Source: a virus
IMG/VR virus record: IMGVR_UViG_3300028400_000014
Span: 1-42,694 of that record
Reading direction: 5' to 3' (one strand)
Length of the DNA: 42,694 bases
Shown one piece after another: positions 1 to 42,694 of the stretch. Positions within the stretch are counted from its first letter, which is position 1, and each line of letters opens with the position of its first letter. The notes under the pieces are model-generated. The model was not told the origin of the DNA. It worked only from the letters and a program-made list of their open reading frames with translations, and ran no database searches. The translations under genes and the position numbers were made by a program.

Positions 1-662
1 TCACTCCCAGCAGGCCAGCGCATCAGCGCCTGGAACGCCTCTGCGGTCGATGAGGGGCCGGACTGGAGGGCGAACGTGTAGGGGCCGGACAACGCGGTCC
101 CCGGCGTACCGGCCAGCGGCGCGGCGTTGTACCGCGACCAGTGCCACGCGGTACTCGTCGATCCGTCCAGGTAGCCGATCGCACCAGGGTCGCCGGCGAC
201 CACGTAGGGCGGGTTCTGGTCTCCCTCGATCACCAGAAACCCACCGCCGCCGCTGGGGCCGACCACAGCCGCATACGCATCGATGCCAAATGTGCCGGCA
301 TCCGGTGTCGATGCGTTGGGGTCTTTTCGTAGCGCTGGCAGGTGAGAATCCACGACGACGCCGCACGCCAGCAGCAGCACACAGTCGCCGGGGTTGATCG
401 TGACCTGACCCGCATCAGGGATGACATGCGAATCAACAGCCTTGTACTCGATCCCAGTCACGCGCCCATAAACATCCCGCCCGAGCGTTTGCCCAGGCTC
501 CGCGTTGTAACTGTAGGACCGCCCGCTCACCCTATCGACGACGATCCCATCGGGCGATGTGAGGTAGTCCAGAAACAGCAGCATGGAATCCGGCAGACCG
601 CCGGACCGCAGAGGATCGTGGCCGGTCAGCGATGGCGACGGCCCGGCGACAGGTCCCAGCAT
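1..662 (-). CDS. Tail-region hypothetical protein, left allele, C-terminus cut by window end
   Basis: This is the left allele of the gene found complete at 41733-42500. The ATG at 660-662 overlaps the stop of the upstream gene (TGATG), and the frame stays open to base 1, giving about 220 residues. It differs from the right copy by roughly 29 substitutions, about 23 of them at third codon positions, so both alleles are under purifying selection for protein sequence. I do not recognise the family; see the full copy for the description. Confidence 0.85.
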   Translation of the reverse strand, partial: MLGPVAGPSPSLTGHDPLRSGGLPDSMLLFLDYLTSPDGIVVDRVSGRSYSYNAEPGQTLGRDVYGRVTGIEYKAVDSHVIPDAGQVTINPGDCVLLLACGVVVDSHLPALRKDPNASTPDAGTFGIDAYAAVVGPSGGGGFLVIEGDQNPPYVVAGDPGAIGYLDGSTSTAWHWSRYNAAPLAGTPGTALSGPYTFALQSGPSSTAEAFQALMRWPAGS

Positions 663-856
663 CAGGCGCTCCAGTTAGGGGCGTCCACCTTCTGCCCGTT
701 CGCCCAGCGCTCACCGATCCACTGGGTGGCCTCCAGCCAGTTGTCCGGCAGCCCGTCGTCGAACACATAGAGCGCCAGCCCGTAGTAGTCCCCGTCGCTG
801 AACATCAGCTTGTTCTGGCTGCCCAGCGACACCGCGCCGAACCCGGACGGCAGCGC
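1..856. repeat. Left copy of the terminal overlap
   Basis: Base 1 aligns with base 41839 and base 856 with the last base of the window, with no gaps and about 31 mismatches counted by eye (about 96% identity). Most mismatches fall at third codon positions of the two genes crossing it. A repeat that ends exactly at the window end, yet carries mostly synonymous differences, fits a circular or permuted genome whose assembly overlaps itself using two strain variants. An exact packaged terminal repeat would not carry such differences. Confidence 0.95.
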
Positions 857-24878: not shown

Positions 24879-25244
24879 TCAGTGTGGGTAGGTGGACAGT
24901 TCTTCGAGCCTGCGGTGGTAAGTGGATGCGGCGATCAAGACCTCGGCCAGGGCGAGCTGGCTGTTCTCCGTGATCGTCGGCAGGTCGGGGGCGATTTCCT
25001 GTGCTGCAGCTACGATCAGTTCGGCGAGATTGGGCGCGAGGGCCACGAGCTGGTCGAGCATTTGCGCGGATTCCATGGCGGCGCAGAGGGTGCTCAGCGT
25101 CTGCGGCGGCGCTGGCACTTCGTTGTCCTGTTCGTGGAGCGCGCGCCGCAGTTCCTCGATGGACTCGACCTTCCTGAAGGCGGGCCGGACGCCGCGCAGC
25201 CCGCTGGTATTTTTGGCGATCTCTATCGTTGGCTTCTTGGCCAT
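24879..25244 (-). CDS. Hypothetical protein, first gene of the late operon, 121 aa
   Basis: The first gene after the leftward promoter at 25270-25297; a strong AGGAGGAG site precedes the ATG. The N-terminus is basic (MAKKPTIEIAKNTSGLRGVRP) and the rest helical (ELRRALHEQDNE; AQMLDQLVALAPNLAELIVAAAQEIAP). No family is recognised. Its place ahead of a DNA-binding protein and TerS suggests a packaging or regulatory accessory role, which is inference. Confidence 0.75.
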   Translation of the reverse strand: MAKKPTIEIAKNTSGLRGVRPAFRKVESIEELRRALHEQDNEVPAPPQTLSTLCAAMESAQMLDQLVALAPNLAELIVAAAQEIAPDLPTITENSQLALAEVLIAASTYHRRLEELSTYPH

Positions 25245-25269
25245 AGTCTCCTCCTATGTGTTGAGGCGG

Positions 25270-25297
25270 ATTGTAGAGTGTTGTCCAGGTATTACAA
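25270..25297 (-). promoter_or_regulatory. Predicted sigma70-like promoter of the late operon
   Basis: Read on the minus strand: TTGTAA (25297-25292), a 16-base spacer, TACAAT (25275-25270). Transcription would start near 25263, about 20 bases before the first start codon. The spacer contains CTGGACAACACTC, the same motif found at the other predicted promoters, so a bound protein would cover the polymerase site. Confidence 0.6.
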
Positions 25298-25421
25298 GGC
25301 TTTCAGCGATAGTGAGCACTAACTAACCACTCGCAGACCTCCGTGCGGAGTCATTAGCATTTTCCTATCGTTCGACGATGAAACGTAAGAAATTCCAATC
25401 GTCCAACACTGGACAACACTC
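25276..25421. repeat. Inverted operator-like repeat in the divergent control region
   Basis: A perfect 12-base inverted repeat: GAGTGTTGTCCA at 25276-25287 and TGGACAACACTC at 25410-25421, 122 bases apart. Each arm overlaps one of the two divergent promoters. The right arm is within CAACACTGGACAA (25404-25416), which recurs inverted at 30084-30096. Between the arms lies a short palindrome (ATCGTTCGACGAT). Such spacing would allow DNA looping. Confidence 0.65.
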
Positions 25422-25438
25422 ACCAACACAACTAGGAT
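25410..25438 (+). promoter_or_regulatory. Predicted promoter for the two-gene rightward island
   Basis: TGGACA (25410-25415), 17 bases, TAGGAT (25433-25438). The -10 match is modest. The spacer again contains ACACTC and CAACACAAC motifs. The transcript would lead into the genes at 25498 and 25799. Confidence 0.45.
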
Positions 25439-25497
25439 TAAATCCACAATGACATTCAGCGGCCAATTGTGCCGCGAATTCCAGAGGAGACAAGACA

Positions 25498-25809
25498 GTG
25501 AACATCACAATCCAGCGCACAGACGTCGCTCCACACGGTGAGGTCTGGGACGTTATGCAAGAATCGAAGGAAACAGAATTCTTCCCTGCAGAAACCGAGT
25601 GGCTTGGCTCATTCGTGTGGACCGAAAACCGAGATGGCTCCGGCTCCGCGCTGATCTCGCTGCCAGGAGTCTCCACGCGAATCGAGATGACATTTTCATC
25701 CCCTAGACATGCCGGGGAGTACATCGCGGACGGTAAAGCGCGCCGGGTCATCCGGGCCGCCATCCAGCAGGCAATGTCCATCGATCAGGAGGTTCGCAAT
25801 GACAATTGA
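25498..25809 (+). CDS. Hypothetical protein, 103 aa
   Basis: Starts with GTG behind GAGGAGA. The product (MNITIQRTDVAPHGEVWDVM...) has an acidic, aromatic middle (SKETEFFPAETEWLGSFVWTE) and a probable beta core (ALISLPGVSTRIEMTF), then a helical end. No family is recognised. It and the next gene form an isolated rightward pair between two leftward operons, driven by their own predicted promoter. That is a common setting for early regulators or anti-host proteins, but no function can be read from the sequence. Confidence 0.75.
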   Translation: MNITIQRTDVAPHGEVWDVMQESKETEFFPAETEWLGSFVWTENRDGSGSALISLPGVSTRIEMTFSSPRHAGEYIADGKARRVIRAAIQQAMSIDQEVRNDN

Positions 25810-26161
25810 CACCGCATTCCGCGACCTGCTCCGCGCGCTCGAAAGCGCCGCGCATTTCGAGGAACATGGCGACCGTCGTTCGGCGGACGACTACTACCAG
25901 CTCGCCAATCGCCTCATGAATGATTTTTATGATGCGACCCTGGAGGATGTCTGGTTGTGCGCCACCATCGAGGAGGCCCGCCGGAACCGCTCGATGAACA
26001 GTTATATCCGGCGCAACTATCCGCAGGAGTGGGCGCGCGCCATCGAAACGCGCGAACCCGTGAAGATTCATTGGGGTGTCGGAACGCTGGCCATTATTCC
26101 GTGCCCGTTGAATGATTGCGCAGACGTGTATTCCGTCACACTCGACTACGCCTCCGCGTAG
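25799..26161 (+). CDS. Hypothetical protein, 120 aa
   Basis: The ATG at 25799 lies behind a perfect AGGAGG site and overlaps the end of the preceding gene by 11 bases. The product has a helical first part (FRDLLRALESAAHFEEHGDR; DDYYQLANRLMNDFYDATLE) and a beta C-terminus (IHWGVGTLAIIPCPLNDC). It ends in TAG, with TAA five codons later. No family is recognised. Co-expression with the 103-residue gene suggests a shared role. Confidence 0.75.
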   Translation: MTIDTAFRDLLRALESAAHFEEHGDRRSADDYYQLANRLMNDFYDATLEDVWLCATIEEARRNRSMNSYIRRNYPQEWARAIETREPVKIHWGVGTLAIIPCPLNDCADVYSVTLDYASA

Positions 26162-27199: not shown

Positions 27200-28026
27200 G
27201 ATTTCCACTCCTCCATGCGCTTGCGCGCCCATGCCTCTGCCGGGTCTTCGGGTGCCGTGCGCGTGAGTTCTCCGACGTACTGCTCGCACTTGCTGGCCCG
27301 GAACAGCGTGCCCGGCCGCAGGTACTGGTGCATCTTGTCGTCGTTGAGCCACTGGGCACATTTGAGGTCGATCACCCTGATCAGGGTGTCCTTGCCGTGC
27401 TCGGCGATTCTCAGCCGCACGAGTTCGGCGTTCTTGCTGATTTTCCCGTTCGCGTTTTTCACCCGGAATGCGCTGCCGGTTTTCCGGTTCAGGTGTTCGA
27501 GCACGTCGGCCACGTCGGCCAACGTCGGGCGTTTGCCCGACCCCTCCCCCGGAGGGGGATATTTCTGGGTCTGAGTGTGGGTATGGTTTTGGCTTTGGTT
27601 TTGGCTTTGGTTCTGGATGGTATTCGTCTGGTATTCGTCGCGTATACGATTCGTATTCGATTCGTATTCGTCGCGTATACGATTCGTATCTTCGGGTTTT
27701 CCCTTATTCCAGCGTGCTGAGATGGCCTTTTTCGCGGCCTCTGAACGCCGCTCTCTCAATGCCTCCACCCGCTCCCTTTCCGCCTCGAGTCTGGCATTGA
27801 TCCAGCCTTTTTCGGTGAGTGTCCAGAAGTGATCCAGAATGTACCTCAGCGCCTCAATCGGCGGATTCGCTGCAAGGCGAGACAGATGATCCATGTCATT
27901 CGGAAGCGGACCGCGTTGCCAAGATACTGCCAACAACAGCATGTAGACGCCGTGCTCACAGCATGACAGACCCATGGTGTCGGAGAGATAGTCACCGACG
28001 AAAAACGGCATGTACGGTGTTTTCAT
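27196..28026 (-). CDS. DUF1376-type replication initiator
   Basis: A 276-residue protein starting at 28026. The N-terminal domain (PYMPFFVGDYLSDTMGLS, HGVYMLLLAVSW) is a clear DUF1376 motif. A basic linker (RRSEAAKKAISARWNKG) leads into a low-complexity part made of two 11-residue repeats (NTNRIRDEY plus two residues) and a Gln/Asn/Ser stretch. A phage C-terminal replication domain (VADVLEHLNRKTGSAFR ... KMHQYLRPGTLFRASK) closes it. The repeats are encoded by iteron-like DNA, so the protein may bind an origin inside its own gene, as lambda O does. A terminator-like hairpin lies directly before the start; the ribosome-binding site (GGGAA) is weak. Confidence 0.82.
   Translation of the reverse strand: MKTPYMPFFVGDYLSDTMGLSCCEHGVYMLLLAVSWQRGPLPNDMDHLSRLAANPPIEALRYILDHFWTLTEKGWINARLEAERERVEALRERRSEAAKKAISARWNKGKPEDTNRIRDEYESNTNRIRDEYQTNTIQNQSQNQSQNHTHTQTQKYPPPGEGSGKRPTLADVADVLEHLNRKTGSAFRVKNANGKISKNAELVRLRIAEHGKDTLIRVIDLKCAQWLNDDKMHQYLRPGTLFRASKCEQYVGELTRTAPEDPAEAWARKRMEEWKS
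27584..27690. repeat. Iteron-like repeats inside the replication gene; candidate origin
   Basis: Two perfect 26-base copies (27631-27656 and 27664-27689) recur with a 33-base period. Each contains the palindrome CGTATACG, and a partial third copy lies just before them. Next to them a 12-base unit (TGGTTTTGGCTT) repeats at 27584-27607 with a partial third copy, giving a strand-asymmetric T/G tract. Direct repeats beside a strand-biased tract inside an initiator gene are the layout of the lambda origin. Confidence 0.55.
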
Positions 28027-28039
28027 GTTGTTGATTCCC

Positions 28040-28116
28040 AAAAAAAAGCCCGCATTGGCGGTGATCGCTGACCCGGGGTGCACGAACAACACCCCACGAC
28101 CACCCCAATACGGGCT
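28040..28116 (-). terminator. Extended nested hairpin with U8: terminator or attenuator before the replication gene
   Basis: On the minus strand an outer 12-bp stem (28116-28105 with 28058-28047), a middle 8-bp stem (28104-28097 with 28067-28060) and an inner 6-bp stem (28095-28090 with 28080-28075) stack into one rod. A run of eight T follows directly. Both imperfect pairs are G.U on this strand and A-C on the other, so selection acted on the leftward RNA. The T run ends 14 bases before the replication gene start, a suitable place for attenuation control. Confidence 0.75.
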
Positions 28117-28177
28117 TGCAGATGTTCGTGATTGTCATGGCCACTTCGGGGTCAGTCTCGGTCGCCACGGGCAGATA

Positions 28178-29310: not shown

Positions 29311-29683
29311 GGGTGTGCTCCTGTTGGTCTATTCGCTCGATCTCGATTTCCAGATACCCCTGGCCGGGTGAGACCGGTCCCCGGATGATTCTCAGATCGT
29401 CGATCTGCGCATCATCGTCGAACAGCCCCGCATGCGAGAGGCTGTCGAGCAGGCTCTTGAGCAGGTTGTCCAGGTCGCGCGCTCGCCTGTCCGGTGCGCA
29501 CGCCAGAATCCGGATCGCCAGACGTGCGTCGCCGAACCCGGTCGTCCGCCAGTGATCTGCCAGCCCGATGGTCTGGATGTGCTTCCGGTAGGCGCGCCCT
29601 TTCTTCGAGATCAGCGTCCGCGAACCGACCCGCCGCCAGTACGTGTTCACCGTGGGCGGCCACGGCAGCTTGATCCGCATCAT
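29303..29683 (-). CDS. rusA: RusA-type Holliday junction resolvase
   Basis: A 126-residue protein (E. coli RusA is 120). The conserved opening PWPPTVNTYWRR, the RARDLDNLLKSLLDSL motif with D70 and D72, and the DDDAQIDDLRI motif with D91 carry the catalytic aspartates at the same numbers as in E. coli RusA; K76 is also present. It would cut four-way junctions formed during phage recombination and resolve branched replicating DNA before packaging. It overlaps the upstream regulator gene by 4 bases and the downstream gene by 8. Confidence 0.92.
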   Translation of the reverse strand: MMRIKLPWPPTVNTYWRRVGSRTLISKKGRAYRKHIQTIGLADHWRTTGFGDARLAIRILACAPDRRARDLDNLLKSLLDSLSHAGLFDDDAQIDDLRIIRGPVSPGQGYLEIEIERIDQQEHTHG

Positions 29684-29874
29684 TCTGCGGGCGCCACGCG
29701 GATGCGCGTGCGGTACTTGCAGATGTCGCGTGCGGTCCAGTAGCTGATCTCGAACTTCTGCGCCACCTCGGACACCTTCAGCCCGTGCGCCTCGTGCAGT
29801 TCGCGCATCAGCTCCACGTCCTCATCCGACAGCCGCGCCTTGTGGTGTCGCTCACCGTGCTGCGCCGCCATCAT
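29680..29874 (-). CDS. Small helix-turn-helix protein, paralogue of the one beside terS, 64 aa
   Basis: The ATG at 29874 overlaps the preceding stop (ATGA). The 64 residues contain LSDEDVELMRELHEAHGLKV and then SEVAQKFEISYWTARDICKY, a helix-turn-helix closely matching the 72-residue protein at 24650-24868. It is the second gene of the leftward operon whose control region shares CAACAC motifs with the late promoter. I infer a regulator of early/late transcription; the paralogues may recognise the same or half-related sites. Confidence 0.78.
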   Translation of the reverse strand: MMAAQHGERHHKARLSDEDVELMRELHEAHGLKVSEVAQKFEISYWTARDICKYRTRIRVAPAE

Positions 29875-30080
29875 GCCGCTCCTTTTCCTTCCGCCAGCCA
29901 TTGAAAATAGCGGTCCTCGTCGATCCAGCAGGTACGGCCCTTGTAGACGACCGCGCCGGATTCCGCCATCCCGTTGCGCTCGCGGTTGAATATCTGCCAG
30001 CGCAGGGAACCCAGCGTGATCCCGCGCTCCCGGTGCCGTTCCGCGAACGCCTTGACCCGGTACAGATTCTGCTTGCTCAT
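29871..30080 (-). CDS. Excisionase-like small DNA-binding protein, 69 aa
   Basis: The product (NLYRVKAFAERHRERGITLG, LRWQIFNRERNG, VVYKGRTCWIDEDRYFQWL) has the winged-helix layout of AlpA/excisionase-like phage proteins: a recognition helix followed by a wing with GR and an IDEDRYFQWL closing helix. No integrase is present, so it is more likely a transcription regulator acting on the adjacent divergent region than an excision factor. It is the first gene of the leftward operon; the ATG at 30080 follows a GGACAA operator-like motif. Confidence 0.75.
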   Translation of the reverse strand: MSKQNLYRVKAFAERHRERGITLGSLRWQIFNRERNGMAESGAVVYKGRTCWIDEDRYFQWLAEGKGAA

Positions 30081-30109
30081 GGTTTGTCCAGTGTTGTGGT
30101 GTGCTGTGG

Positions 30110-30138
30110 AGTGTAGGCGCGCGGAAATTTTTTTGCAA
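30110..30138 (-). promoter_or_regulatory. Predicted promoter of the leftward replication operon
   Basis: On the minus strand TTGCAA (30138-30133), 17 bases, TACACT (30115-30110). It lies back to back with the rightward promoter, with six bases between their -35 boxes, and CAACAC motifs lie downstream of it. Confidence 0.5.
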
Positions 30139-30144
30139 ATCCGC

Positions 30145-30172
30145 TTGACACGCCACAACACGCGGCTATACT
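30145..30172 (+). promoter_or_regulatory. Strong predicted sigma70 promoter of the rightward operon
   Basis: TTGACA (30145-30150) is a perfect -35 box; after a 16-base spacer, TATACT (30167-30172) differs by one base from consensus. The spacer holds CCACAACAC, so the operator-like motif lies under RNA polymerase. Transcription would start near 30179, ahead of the AAGGA site of the first rightward gene. Confidence 0.8.
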
Positions 30173-30212
30173 CGCCAACACACTACAACGCGCGGCAACA
30201 CAAGGAACTCAT

Positions 30213-30512
30213 ATGATCGACGAACTACGGAAACAGGCAGACATGATCCGGCGAGGATTCCGGATCGTTACCTGGGAAACCGAGATCGAGCGGGACGACG
30301 ATGTGCTGTTCGTCGTCGCCCGCGCCACCATCGCACCCGAGGATCGCGCCTCCGGCACCGAGGCGCAGGTCGAGGACATCGACCTGTTCCTCGAGGACGG
30401 CACCCGCATCCTCGATGAGTTCCCTCCTGAAGTCGATGACCGGCTTGAATCAGAGGCATGGAAGGCCCTCAAATCCCAGGATGACAATGCCTGGATGTGG
30501 GAGGGCGACTGA
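30213..30512 (+). CDS. First gene of the rightward operon, hypothetical, 99 aa
   Basis: A 99-residue acidic protein (MIDELRKQADMIRRGFRIVT, IERDDDVLFVVARATIAPED, DIDLFLEDGTRILDEFPP). It follows the strong promoter directly, with AAGGA before the ATG, so it should be the most abundant early product. Its strong negative charge would suit a DNA mimic or host-protein inhibitor, but that is speculation. No family is recognised. Confidence 0.78.
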   Translation: MIDELRKQADMIRRGFRIVTWETEIERDDDVLFVVARATIAPEDRASGTEAQVEDIDLFLEDGTRILDEFPPEVDDRLESEAWKALKSQDDNAWMWEGD

Positions 30513-41736: not shown

Positions 41737-42500
41737 GACTGCCCCCACCATAGCAGCGGTGGATAGATCGTGAAGTGCCCCTTGCCCCACTGGTCCCACA
41801 TCCACGCCATGCCGTCCTTGACCATCTGAAGCGGCGGTTCACTCCCAGCAGGCCAGCGCATCAGCGCCTGGAACGCCTCTGCGGTCGATGAGGGGCCGGA
41901 CTGGAGGGCGAACGTGTAGGGGCCAGACAGCGCGGTCCCAGGCGTACCGGCCAGCGGCGCGGCGTTGTACCGCGACCAGTGCCACGCGGTGCTCGTCGAT
42001 CCGTCCAGGTAGCCGATCGCCCCAGGGTCGCCGGGGACCACATAGGGCGGGTTCTGGTCAGCCTCGATCACCAGAAACCCACCGCCGCCGCTGGGGCCAA
42101 TCACCGCCGCATAGGCATCGACGCCAAAGGTGCCGGCATCCGGCGTCGATGCGTTCGGGTCCTTTCGCAGCGCGGGCAGGTGCGAGTCCACGACGACGCC
42201 GCACGCCAGCAGCAGCACACAGTCGCCGGGGTTGATCGTGACCTGACCCGCATCAGGGATGACGTGCGAGTCAACGGCCTTGTACTCGATCCCCGTCACG
42301 CGCCCATAGACATCCCGCCCGAGCGTTTGCCCAGGCTCCGCGTTGTAGCTGTAGGACCGCCCGCTCACCCTATCGACGACGATCCCATCGGGCGATGTGA
42401 GGTAGTCCAGAAACAGCAGCATGGAATCCGGCAGATCGCCGGACCGCAGAGGATCGTGGCCGGTCAGCGATGGCGACGGCCCGGCGACAGGTCCCAGCAT
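41733..42500 (-). CDS. Tail-region hypothetical protein, 255 aa
   Basis: The complete copy of the gene cut at the left window end. The 255 residues are Gly/Asp/Pro-rich with beta character (DGIVVDRVSGRSYSYNAEPG, RVTGIEYKAVDSHVIPDAG), then an Ala/Pro-rich part and a Trp-rich C-terminus (DGMAWMWDQWGKG; LLWWGQ). The composition fits a virion surface protein. It is coupled to genes before (TGATG) and after (ATGA). It may assist or decorate the fibre. No family is recognised. Confidence 0.78.
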   Translation of the reverse strand: MLGPVAGPSPSLTGHDPLRSGDLPDSMLLFLDYLTSPDGIVVDRVSGRSYSYNAEPGQTLGRDVYGRVTGIEYKAVDSHVIPDAGQVTINPGDCVLLLACGVVVDSHLPALRKDPNASTPDAGTFGVDAYAAVIGPSGGGGFLVIEADQNPPYVVPGDPGAIGYLDGSTSTAWHWSRYNAAPLAGTPGTALSGPYTFALQSGPSSTAEAFQALMRWPAGSEPPLQMVKDGMAWMWDQWGKGHFTIYPPLLWWGQS

Positions 42501-42694
42501 CAGGCGCTCCAGTTCGGGGCGTCCACCTTCTGCCCGTTCGCCCAGCGCTCACCGATCCACCGGGTGGCCTCCAGCCAGTTGTCCGGCAGCCCGTCGTCGA
42601 ACACATAGAGCGCCAGCCCGTAGTAGTCCCCGTCGCTGAACATCAGCTTGTTCTGGCTGCCCAGCGACACCGCGCCGAACCCGGACGGCAGCGC
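41839..42694. repeat. Right copy of the terminal overlap
   Basis: Partner of the repeat at bases 1-856. It covers most of one complete gene (ending at 41733) and the C-terminal part of the next. Joining the copies makes the late operon continuous across the window ends and gives a unique genome length of about 41,838 bases. Confidence 0.95.
42500..42694 (-). CDS. C-terminal end of the 222-aa tail-associated protein (right allele, cut by window end)
   Basis: About 64 residues in the same frame as the gene at 662-1330, with the stop at 42500-42502 sharing bases with the next start. It differs from the left copy at two sites: one synonymous and one giving Gln/Arg. The N-terminal part lies across the join, at the left end of the window. 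Confidence 0.85.
   Translation of the reverse strand, partial: ALPSGFGAVSLGSQNKLMFSDGDYYGLALYVFDDGLPDNWLEATRWIGERWANGQKVDAPNWSA

Follow-up and report, generated by a model that had tools for sequence, protein, structure and literature searches.

The binding sites of the lambda CII protein (TTGC-N6-TTGC) are short direct repeats located one helical turn apart at promoters; they consist of two units only, lie around the -35 region and serve activation. The Apl operators of phage 186 are direct repeats one turn apart, several of them adjacent, which are placed over and between the early promoters. Apl binds them cooperatively with one monomer per repeat, needs at least three adjacent operators in vitro and represses both pR and pL (PMC7498355). 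The operators of the C repressor of the temperate phage P2 are direct repeats flanking the -10 of the early promoter, namely two 8-bp repeats 22 bp apart at one promoter (PMC4752584). Furthermore, Cluster A mycobacteriophages possess L5-type stoperators, asymmetric sites that are common to many promoters and oriented with transcription; each stoperator is a single 13-mer, there are more than 20 such sites, also inside operons, and repression is lost when they are reversed (PMC9283540).

In the phage genome analyzed here (the window, i.e., the complete stretch of 42,694 nucleotides), the repeat unit is the decamer CAACAC-N4, which occurs in tandem, in the same direction and in exact 10-bp register. 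Four such arrays were detected in 41.8 kb when both strands were searched. They are confined to two divergent intergenic gaps, with one array per promoter.

Genome organization and transcription units

The first 856 bases of the window (1-856) recur at 41839-42694 with 96% identity; the two ends of the contig thus join, their differences reflecting strain variation. The most probable form of the genome is either a complete circle or a circularly permuted molecule of approximately 41.84 kb (the record is classed as linear). Judged by its gene content, the virus is a tailed, podovirus-like phage; its terminase shares 55% identity with the terminase of Pseudomonas phage HU1, and its head-tail adaptor strongly matches PHROG 332.

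The late block is transcribed leftward from 25244 down via the terminase and portal genes and across the junction into 42.5-38.5 kb, and an island of two genes is transcribed rightward from 25498. Two early operons diverge at 30.1 kb. The early-left operon comprises gene A, gene B, RusA, an ssDNA-binding-like protein, an HNH protein and the replication gene, where the HNH and ssDNA-binding names represent a reading of the protein sequences. The early-right operon extends from 30213 onward and includes Gp3-like and PD-(D/E)XK proteins. The genes adjoining the two gaps are as follows:

24879..25244, minus strand: first gene of the late operon, 121 aa, no family match
25498..25809, plus strand: island gene 1, 103 aa, acidic, no family match
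25799..26161, plus strand: island gene 2, 120 aa, acidic, no family match
29680..29874, minus strand: gene B, 64-aa HTH-like protein
29871..30080, minus strand: gene A, 69-aa basic protein with a pI of 9.9, first early-left gene, under its own CAACAC array
30213..30512, plus strand: first early-right gene, 99 aa, very acidic with a charge of about -16, no family

The product of the first early-right gene is possibly a DNA mimic or antagonist. Within the early-left operon, a very stable hairpin (28030-28125, minus strand; -50.7 kcal/mol, z -5.8) followed by U8 is located directly upstream of the replication-gene start (about 28026). It looks like a terminator or attenuator, which would imply antitermination or dosage control in this operon. 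Moreover, 11-bp direct repeats (GTATTCGTC...) were found at 27620-27685 inside the DUF1376/Phg_2220_C replication gene. They are probable origin iterons, and phage PfDIW6 also features 11-bp repeats in the corresponding replication gene.

Promoters and decamer arrays

Each of the four transcription units is preceded by a predicted promoter:

25270..25297, minus strand: late promoter, TTGTAA-16-TACAAT, driving 24879-25244 and the terminase/structural genes; poor consensus match (9/12)
25410..25438, plus strand: island promoter, TGGACA-17-TAGGAT; weak (9/12)
30110..30138, minus strand: early-left promoter PL, TTGCAA-17-TACACT; 8/12, read by eye and below the threshold of the promoter scan
30145..30172, plus strand: early-right promoter PR, TTGACA-16-TATACT; near consensus (11/12)

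A preliminary description of this DNA had reported the late promoter (minus strand, 25297..25270) and PR (30145..30172) with an ACAACAC motif inside each spacer, related motifs at the island promoter and a 13-mer common to both loci. All of these were recovered: at the island promoter, CAACAC is found in perfect form three times (25404, 25414 and 25424), and there are exactly two copies of the 13-mer CAACACTGGACAA, at 25404-25416 (plus strand) and 30084-30096 (minus strand). The accompanying view that the operators lie inside the spacers holds in part, since the spacer motifs are present but form only part of tandem decamer arrays covering the promoter core. These arrays, written in the sense of transcription and with unit positions counted from the first base of the -10 hexamer, are:

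25254..25293, minus strand: late array, AATACCTGGA CAACACTCTA CAATCCGCCT CAACACATAG, units at -18, -8, +2 and +12
25404..25433, plus strand: island array, CAACACTGGA CAACACTCAC CAACACAACT, three perfect units at -29, -19 and -9
30077..30116, minus strand: PL array, CTACACTCCA CAGCACACCA CAACACTGGA CAAACCATGA, units at -1, +9, +19 and +29
30156..30205, plus strand: PR array, CAACACGCGG CTATACTCGC CAACACACTA CAACGCGCGG CAACACAAGG, units at -11, -1, +9, +19 and +29

In the late array, the first and third units are degenerate, so that a degenerate unit separates the two perfect ones, and PL and PR possess three to five perfect or near units. The register -1, +9, +19, +29 is common to PR and PL, with the -10 box itself representing a degenerate unit; at PL, the -10 is contained in the first unit and the last unit overlaps the ATG. 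The late and island registers differ from that of PR/PL by 2-3 bp. At PR, PL and the late promoter, the arrays span both the -10 and the expected start, and the island array covers the -35 and the spacer, upstream of the -10. Every array points along transcription, for which the chance probability is 1 in 16. The spacer tetramers (N4) vary between units, which fits operators and is unlike a minisatellite.

Statistical evaluation of the arrays

Every hexamer was tested for four-unit arrays at period 10 over the genome, with both strands included. Here, CAACAC was the top non-palindromic hexamer, reaching a score of 19 in four places, and the next hexamer scored 8. In 100 whole-genome dinucleotide shuffles, 0.01 CAACAC clusters were obtained per genome, and the best score for any hexamer was 16 (with self-complementary hexamers, which count twice, included). 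Within the two gaps, periods of 6 to 15 bp were compared: CAACAC reached 19 at period 10 and 0 at each of the others, other hexamers never exceeded 4 at any of these periods, and the best score of any hexamer in 300 gap shuffles was 5. The closeness of the four registers to each other is not significant alone (estimate about 0.2).

It had been predicted that the motif would cluster in the two gaps only. This is true of the 10-bp-phased arrays; the bare ACAACAC heptamer is not enriched, with five matches versus 3.3 expected (24 of 100 shuffles reach five), the fifth being located at 28086 in the loop of the terminator-like hairpin. Nevertheless, the idea of an operator code shared by the early, late and island promoters receives strong support from these statistics, according to which the arrays appear to be a real and statistically very strong regulatory feature.

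Occurrence in related phages and other viral contigs

Relatives found by means of the terminase possess neither gene A nor CAACAC arrays. In fourteen of these relatives, other motifs likewise formed no such array, except for GC-rich noise and the iteron-like replication-gene repeats of PfDIW6. The lack of both arrays and gene in relatives indicates that the array system is peculiar to this lineage, and their joint absence fits, albeit weakly, a role of gene A as the binder.

In IMG/VR, triple CAACAC-N4 arrays were detected on 114 contigs, compared to 62 for a reversed-motif control. After removal of micro- and minisatellites, 22 variable-spacer arrays were left (21 without the window's own) versus five in the control. 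Despite this excess, the arrays are tied to no one gene family, several are located inside genes, and no common gene or register was found among them. CAACAC arrays thus recur in unrelated phages. A common promoter register in other phages was also considered and discarded: no site matched a TTGACA-anchored pattern, and the 29 matches to a TATAAT-anchored pattern came mainly from one sequence family, coding DNA or microsatellites.

Three individual contigs are described here in their own right. An unrelated viral contig (L172, 3303-3365) features TTGACA-19-TATAAT followed by CAACAC units at +9, +19 and +29 from the -10; alone among the 29 TATAAT-anchored matches, it suggests the register of PR and PL, though with a 19-bp spacer. 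On a second unrelated contig (L190, 803-1005), arrays of the decamer TCAACACWTC are located about 200 bp apart on opposite strands and read outward, a layout resembling a divergent promoter pair. On a third viral contig (L103, 3440-3470), a CAACAC decamer array overlaps the possible start of an HTH-like protein, and this position suggests autoregulation.

Proposed mechanism and candidate binding proteins

We propose, with moderate confidence, that one phage-coded regulator acts cooperatively on helically phased direct-repeat operators and limits transcription initiation. A single protein would bind neighboring units on one face of the helix, head to tail. At the early and late promoters, the resulting row of protein would lie over the -10 and the start site and block polymerase. 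At the island promoter, it would cover the -35 and spacer, where repression is likely and activation also possible. Initiation at all four transcription units would be limited in this way, and the earlier suggestion that a single repressor may silence all operons is plausible. A point against the mechanism is that the promoters are not uniform in register relative to the -10, with differences of up to 3 bp.

Less surely, the binder would be the 69-aa product of gene A, made from PL and repressing its own promoter. Early transcription would then turn itself down, and the late operon would be held until binding is relieved, e.g., when replicated DNA dilutes the protein or an antagonist intervenes. 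We regard the gene A product as the best-placed candidate because of its position, as the first gene at its own array, and its charge. None of the other three units begins with a gene for a basic protein; against the pI of 9.9 of the gene A product, their first products and that of island gene 2 lie at 4.2-5.2. Moreover, the Pseudomonas phages AF and HU1 encode a small HTH regulator in gene A's position, i.e., as the first gene of the early operon at the divergent gap.

Gene A matched nothing in Pfam, NCBIfam, PDB or the phage and plasmid collections, and a comparison with PHROGs yielded only E=0.05. Putative homologues from viral and genome collections, phages, plasmids and several hundred genomes were inspected and discarded as chance matches. 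A single-sequence AlphaFold2 model was poor (pLDDT 66), and a Foldseek search with this model returned nothing significant. The impression of a short winged-helix protein, gained from the sequence, received no support from the HTH_17 search, which gave no match at gene A, or from an alignment with the BPP-1 excisionase (122/2000 shuffles, not significant).

It is possible, though clearly less probable than the mechanism proposed above, that the same arrays are read by another binder, i.e., gene B, an island protein or a host protein, with gene A being irrelevant. Gene B is a second candidate on account of its predicted features: it has weak HTH matches and shares 44% identity over 55 aa with Bbp27 of Bordetella phage BPP-1. 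BPP-1, however, keeps this relative of gene B without a CAACAC array in the 22.5 kb examined. The three best units are located at the island promoter, as might be the case for the own promoter of an autoregulated regulator, but the island proteins, with a pI of 4.8, are acidic and without a match to any DNA-binding family.

An activating or mixed activity in place of repression, either CII-like around the -35 or in early-to-late switching, is considered unlikely. The island units at -29, -19 and -9 over a weak -35/-10 pair and the poor consensus match of the late promoter (9/12) would suit an activator. In contrast, PR is already near consensus (11/12), and the units of PR and PL occupy the -10 and the downstream region as far as +29, where a bound protein would block polymerase.

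Even less probable is an action in RNA, with the arrays serving as a C/A-rich leader element for a translation or elongation factor or as an unstructured leader aiding translation. In favor of this view, the four arrays share the direction of transcription, transcripts from PL and PR should include the units at +19 and +29, and both leaders are predicted to be unstructured. However, several units, namely those at -11 of PR, -8 of the late promoter and -29 to -9 of the island promoter, are located upstream of the expected starts and would hence be untranscribed, so the arrays cannot act only in RNA; furthermore, the strict 10-bp period suits the DNA helix better than single-stranded RNA. Finally, chance, composition bias of CA-rich leaders or a functionless leftover of tandem duplication is highly improbable, for although most CAACAC arrays in other viral contigs are mini- or microsatellites, dinucleotide-keeping shuffles stay below the observed score, the spacer tetramers vary, and the arrays are located at four separate promoters on both strands and nowhere else, coding DNA included.

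Early shut-off and timing versus lysogeny

For the proposed regulator, both a lysogeny-like and a timing role had been suggested, without a recognizable CI or Cro. Profile searches with PF00589, PF00239 and PF01381 found no tyrosine integrase, serine resolvase or HTH_3 (CI/Cro-type) domain in the genome at E<=10, and control genomes were matched. The stated lack of a recognizable CI or Cro is thereby borne out, and the lysogeny-like reading is not supported. Early shut-off and early/late timing are likelier than lysogeny given that integrase, resolvase and HTH_3 repressor were not found, and a timing switch is possible. A lambdoid CI/Cro switch was rejected, as PF01381 was unmatched and the repeats are direct, not inverted. 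Replication iterons were likewise rejected as the identity of the arrays; the arrays coincide with four promoters, and separate 11-bp repeats exist in the replication gene.

We tentatively advance a broader reading that is rather doubtful at present: a phage with no detectable integrase or CI/Cro would keep every major unit under one direction-coded decamer array and a single small protein of an undescribed family, serving as a global timer or as a device for immunity. Should a single small protein read the arrays, the phage would offer a compact and testable case of operon ordering without known repressors, and the orphan protein would join the few known direct-repeat binders. The precise operator code (CAACAC every 10 bp) can be searched for, mutated and used to pull out the binder.

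Comparison with known systems

Among related podoviruses, AF and HU1 resemble the phage in having a small protein first in the early operon at the divergent gap. Their regulators are CI/Cro-like HTH proteins, whereas gene A is unrelated to them in sequence, and their genomes are without arrays. The lambda CII sites are similar in being short direct repeats one turn apart at promoters; their sequence differs. As in the case of the P2 C operators, the repeats are direct and not inverted, but decamer arrays at four promoters replace two repeats at one. The L5-type stoperators share the asymmetry and the orientation, with four of four arrays following transcription. Unlike stoperators, the phage sites are tandem decamers at four promoters only, with no arrays inside operons, and an L5-type repressor was not found in the phage.

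Closest in working principle are 186 Apl and the P2-type Cox proteins. The direct repeats fall within the 10-11 bp spacing of these systems, in exact 10-bp register in all four arrays, and three or more adjacent units are placed over or between early promoters. The differences are that the phage motif is unrelated as far as checked, that no integrase (PF00589 and PF00239 unmatched) or attachment function was found, and that the late and island promoters are covered by arrays as well, each array following its own direction of transcription. Based on this comparison, the principle of helically phased direct-repeat operators is known, and the arrays described here appear to represent a new variant of it.
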